From the NCBI GenBank assembly GCA_913060435.1, contig CAJXSB010000002.1:1-48641 (forward strand): DNA of 48,641 nucleotides, in the 5' to 3' direction. How positions within the stretch are numbered: the stretch's first letter is position 1; each line of letters begins with the position of its first letter. Shown here piece after piece: positions 10,649 to 11,857 of this stretch. This DNA comes from an uncultured Desulfococcus sp. (GTDB lineage: Bacteria > Desulfobacterota > Desulfobacteria > Desulfobacterales > Desulfococcaceae). The position numbers and the translations under genes were made by a program. The notes under the pieces were generated by a model. It was not told the DNA's origin. It saw only the letters and a list, made by a program, of their open reading frames with translations, and made no database searches.

Positions 10649-10705
10649 CATGTGAAACAGGTAATTTCACATGATATTCTCTTACTTCACATGATATTCT
10701 CTTAC
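10649..10705. promoter_or_regulatory. Operator-like repeat array upstream of efflux operon
   Basis: A 9-nt inverted repeat, CATGTGAAA (10649-10657) and TTTCACATG (10665-10673), is spaced by 7 nt. Overlapping its right arm, a perfect 20-nt tandem direct repeat follows (10666-10685 and 10686-10705). This gives a third TTCACATG half-site at 10686-10693. The half-sites overlap the predicted -10 of the efflux promoter, the typical place for a repressor. The binding protein is unknown. The nearby CI-like repressor has a different palindrome in front of its own gene, so it may not be the partner. Confidence 0.65.
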
Positions 10706-10719: not shown

Positions 10720-10840
10720 TCTTGTCAATGTTAAGATGAATCTGCATCATTCCGGATCTGCCCGGCTGAAAGGCGTCCCGCAGGCAGATCCGGACGATGT
10801 TCCGGCCACCGAAAAAAAGGTTGCCGTTTTCGTCCGAGCG

Positions 10841-10858
10841 TGTTAATTAAAATTAACA
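10841..10858. promoter_or_regulatory. Palindromic operator upstream of the CI-like repressor gene
   Basis: TGTTAAT-TAAA-ATTAACA is a perfect 7+7 nt inverted repeat 50 nt before the repressor ATG. The same architecture with the same TAAA centre recurs at 11574-11591 just after the gene. This strongly suggests an operator for the repressor itself. It overlaps the region where a -10 would fall. Confidence 0.65.
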
Positions 10859-10908
10859 ATACTGGCCAACCATCCGACCATGCATCCAACTGATCCCTGG
10901 AGGGCGCC

Positions 10909-11556
10909 ATGAGCGCAGCAGGCTTCGACATGTTTCTCCGAAGGGTTTTCGAGGCGACCGGCATCGCTTCCCAGAACGAGCTGGCCTCGGTCCTGAACAT
11001 CCACCGGGCCGCCGTCAGCCAGGCGAAGCGCAAGGGCGCCGTTCCGGAAAGATGGATCCTCATTCTGTCCCGGAAGTTCGGCCTCAATCCCGAATGGCTC
11101 GAGACCGGCGAGGGGCTGACGTTTTCTTCGCAGGAGGCTGGTGCGGCGTTTGTCCATGTCCCCAAGGTGGCGGCCCGGCTCTCGGCCGGCGGCGGCTCCT
11201 TTGAGACGGCATCGAAGATCGAGGGGCATTTTGCCTTCCAGCGGTCCTGGCTGACGCAAAAAGGCGACCCCGGCCGGATGGTCCTCATGGATGTCTCCGG
11301 CGACAGCATGGAGCCGGAAATACGGGATGGAGACATGGTCCTGATCGACCGTTCCCGGGTCGAGATGCTGGCCGGCGCCATCTATGCCGTCGGCGTCGAC
11401 GAAGCGATCCTGGTCAAGCGTGTCGAGAAGCAGCCGAACGCGCTTGTGCTGCACAGTGACAATCCCCGGTATGCGCCGATGGTGCTACGCGGTGATGAGA
11501 CGGCCGGCGTGCGGATGATCGGCCGGGTCATCTGGGTGTGCCGGGAATATCGATAG
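10909..11556 (+). CDS. CI/LexA-like repressor with S24 peptidase domain
   Basis: This 215-residue regulator has a phage CI-type helix-turn-helix at about residues 8-66 (SQNELASVLNIHRAAVSQAK) and a C-terminal S24/LexA-type self-cleavage domain. The catalytic pair is visible as Ser133 in GDSMEPEI and Lys170 in ILVKRVEK. A candidate cleavage site is Ala93-Gly94 in LSAGGG; Ala77-Gly78 is an alternative. Such proteins are repressors inactivated by RecA-stimulated self-cleavage after DNA damage, or simply dimerise through this domain. GGAGG precedes the ATG. Two near-identical palindromes flank the gene, pointing to autoregulation and control of the following small gene. No prophage genes surround it, so it may be a domesticated regulator. 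Confidence 0.88.
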   Translation: MSAAGFDMFLRRVFEATGIASQNELASVLNIHRAAVSQAKRKGAVPERWILILSRKFGLNPEWLETGEGLTFSSQEAGAAFVHVPKVAARLSAGGGSFETASKIEGHFAFQRSWLTQKGDPGRMVLMDVSGDSMEPEIRDGDMVLIDRSRVEMLAGAIYAVGVDEAILVKRVEKQPNALVLHSDNPRYAPMVLRGDETAGVRMIGRVIWVCREYR

Positions 11557-11573
11557 ACCTCTTTTTTTTTAGA

Positions 11574-11591
11574 TGTTAACTAAAGTAAACA
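11574..11591. promoter_or_regulatory. Second CI-type palindromic operator before small gene
   Basis: TGTTAAC-TAAA-GTAAACA is an imperfect inverted repeat (one mismatch; the flanking A and T extend it to 20 nt) with the same TAAA centre as the site at 10841-10858. It lies 45 nt upstream of the small gene at 11636 and 18 nt after the repressor stop, next to a run of about ten T. Confidence 0.6.
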
Positions 11592-11635
11592 TTTGGAATT
11601 TCATCCAGCCAACCTGTTTTGGGAAAGGAGAGCAC

Positions 11636-11857
11636 ATGATGGATATCCGGGAAGAATTGACAACGACGATCATGAAGATGCGGTGCCTGGCCGAAACCTA
11701 CAACACCGATGCCGATATCGGTTTCCGGCGGGGCTGGGAGCGTACGACCGGCAGCCTGATCCACGGGCTTGCCGATGAGATCGAGGCCGTACTTGCCATG
11801 TCCAACGAAAGCGAAATAGAGGGGGGGCGTTCGGACGCGGTCCTGAAGTCCGCCTAG
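11636..11857 (+). CDS. Small hypothetical protein downstream of CI-like repressor
   Basis: The chosen ATG at 11636 follows AAAGGAG at good spacing and gives 73 residues beginning MMDIREELTTTIMKMRCL. A longer frame from 11573 would start inside the palindromic operator and is unlikely. The protein is mostly helical and acidic, with ITMKM-type amphipathic helices and a LADEIEAVLAM stretch; there is no signal peptide or membrane segment. I do not recognise the family. The upstream palindrome matches that of the repressor, so it is probably controlled by it and could be expressed upon DNA damage or another inducing signal. Confidence 0.6.
   Translation: MMDIREELTTTIMKMRCLAETYNTDADIGFRRGWERTTGSLIHGLADEIEAVLAMSNESEIEGGRSDAVLKSA

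Follow-up and report, generated by a model that had tools for sequence, protein, structure and literature searches.

The locus is, to judge from its sequence, quite probably a minimal two-promoter switch, in which a chromosomal, phage-derived S24 repressor would act at two operators, O1 and O2, and a tiny gene would be the output. It lies in a window of 48,641 nucleotides, the whole stretch of DNA that was analysed. The repressor gene (10909..11556, plus strand) and the small gene downstream of it (11636..11857, plus strand) are located as the first-pass annotation had claimed, and the two matching palindromes that it had described do flank the repressor, at 10841-10858 and 11574-11591. O1 (10841..10858, no strand; TGTTAATTAAAATTAACA) has the arms TGTTAAT and ATTAACA around a TAAA centre, pairs at 7/7 arm positions as a perfect palindrome, and is a predicted site over the expected -10 element of the repressor promoter. 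O2 (11574..11591, no strand; TGTTAACTAAAGTAAACA), with the arms TGTTAAC and GTAAACA around the same centre, is a predicted site before the small gene and pairs at 6/7 positions, with a single arm mismatch. With up to three mismatches allowed these are the only places in the window, each read on both strands. The window has a GC content of 64%, and the palindrome pattern was found in none of 100 dinucleotide shuffles of it. The first-pass annotation had named many unrelated copies genome-wide as the result that would count against a dedicated unit; across the whole assembly (4.58 Mb, 553 contigs, 98.8% complete), exact matches to the degenerate pattern TGTTWAYNNNNRTWAACA occur at O1 and O2 only, with one occurrence of the reversed-pattern control. 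Allowing up to two mismatches gave 38 places in the same assembly versus 47 for the control, and thus no wider set of sites. One site with a single mismatch lies at C386:408, about 130 nt beyond the 3' end of an ORF that we take to be aminotransferase-like. A weight matrix trained solely on upstream sites of other genomes, but on sites picked with the window-derived consensus, ranked O1 and O2 first and second in the window at 25.4 and 18.4 bits, the next place scoring 8.0 bits.

The -35-like hexamer of the repressor promoter, TTGCCG (10821..10826, plus strand), aligns with a TTGC(A) conserved in relatives, where it is TTGCA in most. It is a weak match to the consensus and was missed by a sigma-70 scan of the window, which found no good promoter at either O1 or O2. 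A T9 tract (11562..11570, plus strand) stands between the repressor stop codon and O2, and a T-tract recurs at this place in many relatives. Further repeats lie on the other side of the repressor. The region 10649-10705, between the repressor and a divergent RND efflux operon, holds an inverted repeat, CATGTGAAA...TTTCACATG, as well as a 20-bp sequence repeated perfectly in tandem, TTCACATGATATTCTCTTAC; it looks like the binding region of another regulator, probably one for the efflux pump. Just upstream of the repressor promoter is a 12-nt perfect inverted repeat with a 20-nt gap (TCCGGATCTGCC/GGCAGATCCGGA, 10751-10794).

Homologues of the repressor (E <= 1e-30) were found in 42/194 related genomes, as a single copy in 40 of the 42, and in 19/395 genomes drawn across the phylum. 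The 42 loci compared here, all from related Desulfobacterota, comprise 40 loci from 39 genomes of the 194-genome survey and two Desulfomicrobium loci. Partial repressor matches in G051, G149 and G186 (two) were left out, three further loci were excluded as duplicates of genomes already in the set, and at least one locus near a contig end drops from single counts, which then stand at 41 instead of 42. An upstream operator scored at least 12/14 in 29/41 loci and a downstream operator did so in 22/41. When these regions were shuffled, about 2% reached the same score in either case, and the shuffles are the fairer control given that the consensus used for picking sites came from the window. In relatives the upstream geometry is TTGCA, then 17-18 nt, then a -10 element embedded in the operator. 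The downstream operator sits mostly 9-65 nt beyond the repressor stop, and its promoter has no clear -35 element. A leave-one-out matrix was also built on upstream sites alone. With the upstream interval set aside, it gave the downstream site the top score of the locus in 29/41 cases, where about 1.3 would be expected from interval length alone. Several loci have no downstream operator, and in G077 and G117 the recognition helix is mostly the same, yet there is no operator. The GC-rich relatives G460, G568 and G399 keep the repressor, the T-tract, the downstream operator and a small gene of the family termed A below.

Runs of at least six T within 160 nt of the repressor stop are present in 33/45 loci, and the recurrent T7-T9 tract between this stop and O2 is often followed by GCC. 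A hairpin in the tract was rejected, the flank complementarity being 140 versus 139.4 +/- 11.6 in shuffled sequence, with no covariation. A terminator before O2 is likewise not general, as a stem folds in some loci only. Over 34 repressor genomes the exact pattern occurs at 34 sites versus 22 for the reversed control, and 13 of these are at repressor loci. Outside them the count is 21 against 22, and a wider regulon was rejected, with the exception of one locus in G004 described below. The ten repressor-free genomes among the 44 searched held seven exact sites versus three for the control.

The repressor is a protein of 215 residues in which Pfam and homologues identify a Phage_CI_repr HTH (residues 9-71; PF07022, 37 bits against a cut-off of 22) and a Peptidase_S24 domain (residues 89-208; PF00717, 83.6 bits against 23.3). 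It carries two sequence marks of the self-cleaving repressors of the S24 superfamily (LexA/CI/UmuD), the domain itself and an Ala-Gly bond with a Ser/Lys dyad. The predicted self-cleavage bond is Ala93-Gly94 (codons at 11185..11190, plus strand), with Ala in 42/42 and Gly in 41/42 aligned repressors. Ser133 (11305..11307, plus strand), the predicted nucleophile, lies in a region aligned with PDB LexA chains; both it and Lys170 (11416..11418, plus strand), the predicted general base, are present in 42/42. The protein is probably a self-cutting member of the LexA/UmuD type. The earlier label 'CI/LexA-like' names the right kind of protein, though LexA itself can be discounted: the repressor's score against the LexA equivalog TIGR00498 (NCBIfam) is 50.1 bits, below the cut-off of 110.95, and a separate canonical LexA is encoded in the same genome on contig C233, at 169.6 bits. 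The best PHROG match is a phage transcriptional repressor (phrog_4, E 2.3e-42).

The small gene encodes P0002, a protein of 73 residues of family E for which AlphaFold predicts a two-helix hairpin (single-sequence model, mean pLDDT 76.4). It is preceded by a Shine-Dalgarno-like AAGGAG (11625..11630, plus strand), a motif also found before the homologue in G001. Homologues share 65% identity in G001 and 48% in G004, and over 72 codons P0002 and the G001 protein differ at 21/15/33 sites by codon position. This third-position excess, the homologues and the Shine-Dalgarno-like sequence together indicate a real gene. A family search of Pfam, NCBIfam, PHROG and PADLOC with P0002 gave no match. Family E is the rarest type of output, being present in 3/194 genomes with its own included. 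In G004 the family-E gene is on a different contig from the repressor, behind a 54-aa ORF (L040 1738-1902) that has an exact operator 28 nt before it. This ORF belongs to family F, which was rejected as a repressor-linked output, since it is widespread (39/194 genomes) and its occurrence is not tied to the repressor.

Across the 42 loci the next same-strand gene or genes come from five tiny-protein families in 30, a figure that is a description rather than an independent test, as the family seeds were taken from the same loci; 12/42 loci have none of the five. Family A was found at 13 loci, B at 16, C and D at 4 each, and E at 2 (window included), with A and B together in nine. Family A is zinc-ribbon-like and Cys-rich, C is a membrane protein, D is Cys-rich and E is a helical hairpin; for none of the five did the searched libraries yield a confident match. 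With two sites in the genome, both positions conserved in relatives and a small gene at these 30 loci, the earlier proposal of a likely self-contained regulatory unit holds up well. Family A occurs in 11/194 genomes, every one a repressor carrier (Fisher p = 1.6e-8), and adjoins the repressor in 11/12 matches; the copy in G122 looks degraded. Family D is present in 13/194 genomes, with 4 matches at repressor loci.

Family B is found in 58/194 genomes. At 10/14 B loci read away from the repressor, all ten in repressor-free genomes, a WYL-type gene lies beside B, the call resting on the same gene type as two that Pfam showed to be HTH_11-WYL-WCX regulators. In these loci (L126, L136, L137, L140, L142, L144, L145, L148, L149 and L150) the B protein has the form EYHGNT...RDWILFD, and a gene of about 126 aa and a cytochrome c3-like gene are often near. 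The excerpted literature places the ssDNA-sensing damage regulators DriD and PafBC among the WYL regulators. Elsewhere a large N6-methylase-type gene comes next after the repressor, in L119 (G025), L085 (G191, locus G191a) and L083 (G124), or after family B in L099 (G086). The G025 gene product gave matches to type IIG restriction enzymes, and the G025, G191a and G124 loci have no convincing downstream operator.

Genes for translesion (Y-family) polymerases are near the repressor in 5/40 loci (G000, G001, G079, G114 and G155), against 0.10 expected from the 63 such genes in 39 genomes. G000 and G001 are of the same genus, which leaves about four independent cases. A gene that we take to be umuD-like is divergent from the repressor in G190 and G155, and presumably umuDC-like genes lie downstream of it in G114. 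Read from sequence, the predicted cleavage residues and these neighbours support a putative DNA-damage signal for the switch. LexA scored above its cut-off in 26/42 repressor genomes, so the repressor switch is usually additional to LexA. The other 16/42 had no LexA over the cut-off; the assemblies of some of them are not complete, and in G060 fragments lie at contig ends. In G001, a single contig, the repressor and a canonical LexA are about 18 kb apart (L097/L212; C1:279809 and 298332), and a Y-family polymerase gene is close to each of them.

In the switch that we propose, a repressor dimer would bind O1 and O2 and so repress both itself and the tiny gene. DNA damage would lead to RecA filaments and these to self-cleavage of the repressor between Ala93 and Gly94. 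Both promoters would then fire, and newly made repressor would later shut them off. The output would vary by lineage, being A, B, C, D or, as here, E, and in the window genome the switch would work beside canonical LexA.

Several other explanations bear on this proposal. The palindromes could be coincidental AT-rich inverted repeats or be bound by an unrelated regulator, as such palindromes arise easily in AT-rich relatives and, away from the repressor loci, 34 repressor genomes contain no more exact matches than control matches. We regard this as highly improbable, given the 64% GC of the window, the empty shuffles and a position conserved in relatives above shuffled levels. It is also improbable that the locus is a prophage remnant, or a piece of a prophage that can still move, and not a host switch. 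The CI-type HTH and the PHROG match would fit a prophage, and so would the related copies in f112 genomes (1-3 per genome, about 40-45% identity), which we infer to be prophage copies; these have no such operators, their best scores being 8-10 of 14. Against it, a Pfam scan of 17 window proteins, covering 14 of the 31 larger ORFs and with six of ten in one batch lacking any match, found no phage gene besides the repressor's own HTH, and a scan of a viral contig collection gave 7 pattern matches and 0 repressor relatives. The repressor is single copy in nearly all carriers, and the operator is kept in dozens of genomes. Its neighbours are efflux, repair or metabolic genes, those in the window including an efflux pump and metabolic genes, and four loci of family f51 share neighbours that we take to be glycerol kinase and amidohydrolase. 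The nearest phage protein, from Desulfovibrio phage ProddE, shares 38.8% identity. The first-pass suggestion of a perhaps domesticated phage switch is plausible on these grounds, and the switch is of phage type and probably chromosomal.

The signal and the output each allow a different reading. The repressor might bind both sites and cleave itself in response to something other than DNA damage, such as redox state or a ligand, in the manner of S24-type regulators that work independently of RecA. The efflux pump and metabolic genes that adjoin it in the window would fit this, as would the canonical LexA already in the genome, and the abstract of PMC7101444 presents the LexA-like protein IrvR as departing from the RecA rule. 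The invariant cleavage residues and the repeated adjacency to umuDC, umuD or dinB stand against such a signal, which we consider unlikely. As to the output, our first guess is that P0002 is the effector of a damage checkpoint. The main alternative, between which and our guess the data do not choose, is that the small protein is a partner of the repressor, whether corepressor, antirepressor or modulator of its cleavage, as DdrR is for UmuDAb or gp7 for LexA. This possibility, the less favoured of the two but a serious one, concerns the output only and is compatible with the rest of the proposed switch. It gains from the confinement of family A to repressor genomes, where it is nearly always adjacent, and from DdrR, which the available text of PMC11332147 describes as a small genus-specific corepressor under the same operator as its repressor. 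It would require five unrelated small families all to bind the same repressor, and the presence of family B in many repressor-free genomes, often beside a WYL regulator, argues that B acts elsewhere.

The closest published case that we found is FddR of Francisella (PMC13148647). As far as the excerpted text describes it, FddR is likewise a co-opted phage S24 repressor outside prophages, which regulates itself through a palindrome in a minimal, 'self-contained' network comprising one gene whose function is unknown and, in certain species, dinB as well. An operator in the repressor's own promoter is also predicted for the locus here and related loci, where O1 falls on the -10 position. The same excerpt gives the FddR site as GTG-N11-CAC with a divergent target, both absent here, where the motif is TGTTWAY-N4-RTWAACA and the target lies downstream in the same direction; it also describes Francisella, a different phylum, as being without LexA, whereas the window genome has one. 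For a small partner protein, UmuDAb/DdrR is the closest precedent (PMC11332147). The parts of that paper available describe a self-cleaving LexA-family repressor, an operator-controlled small lineage-specific protein and a link to error-prone polymerases. Unlike the repressor here, UmuDAb is there related to UmuD and its HTH is unconventional, the ddrR gene is divergently oriented, Acinetobacter has no LexA in the genus, and UmuDAb operators lie at several umuDC loci.

Canonical LexA of the SOS response shares the S24 domain, the Ala-Gly bond, the Ser-Lys dyad and the expected autoregulation; the repressor here differs from it in its CI-type HTH, its sub-cut-off score, a two-site regulon and the true LexA alongside. 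Phage CI repressors with PF07022 and S24 (ProddE and Pseudomonas phage DMS3) share 36-39% identity over 95-98% of the protein, but no phage surroundings were found here among the 17 window proteins scanned, and the repressor is mostly single copy, with chromosomal neighbours and tiny outputs that have no PHROG match. Caulobacter DriD/DidA, in the excerpted account (PMC4211646), is a LexA-independent damage regulator that drives a small protein, and family B of the relatives lies by WYL regulators; DriD is a WYL activator there, in contrast to the S24 repressor here. The locus thus differs from known cases in its motif, its downstream co-directional target, its exchangeable outputs and its coexistence with LexA. 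Our literature search returned no direct description of such a repressor/tiny-gene unit in Desulfobacterota, and a full-text search for LexA or SOS in Desulfovibrio and sulfate reducers returned nothing.

A broader reading, which we put forward tentatively and which may well not hold, is that Desulfobacterota possess an old, LexA-independent 'plug-in' damage switch, with a single conserved repressor, fixed operators on either side of its gene and swapped tiny proteins, family B having been recruited by WYL regulators, and that these proteins would form a new effector class. Under this reading the downstream site would in some loci have taken up umuDC or, possibly, a restriction enzyme of type IIG. 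If our proposal is true, the locus would be a two-site, one-output damage circuit suited to reconstruction in a laboratory strain, and would provide a means to ask how phage repressors turn into host regulators. It would also single out five tiny-protein families whose members are likely to be stress effectors or partners of the repressor.
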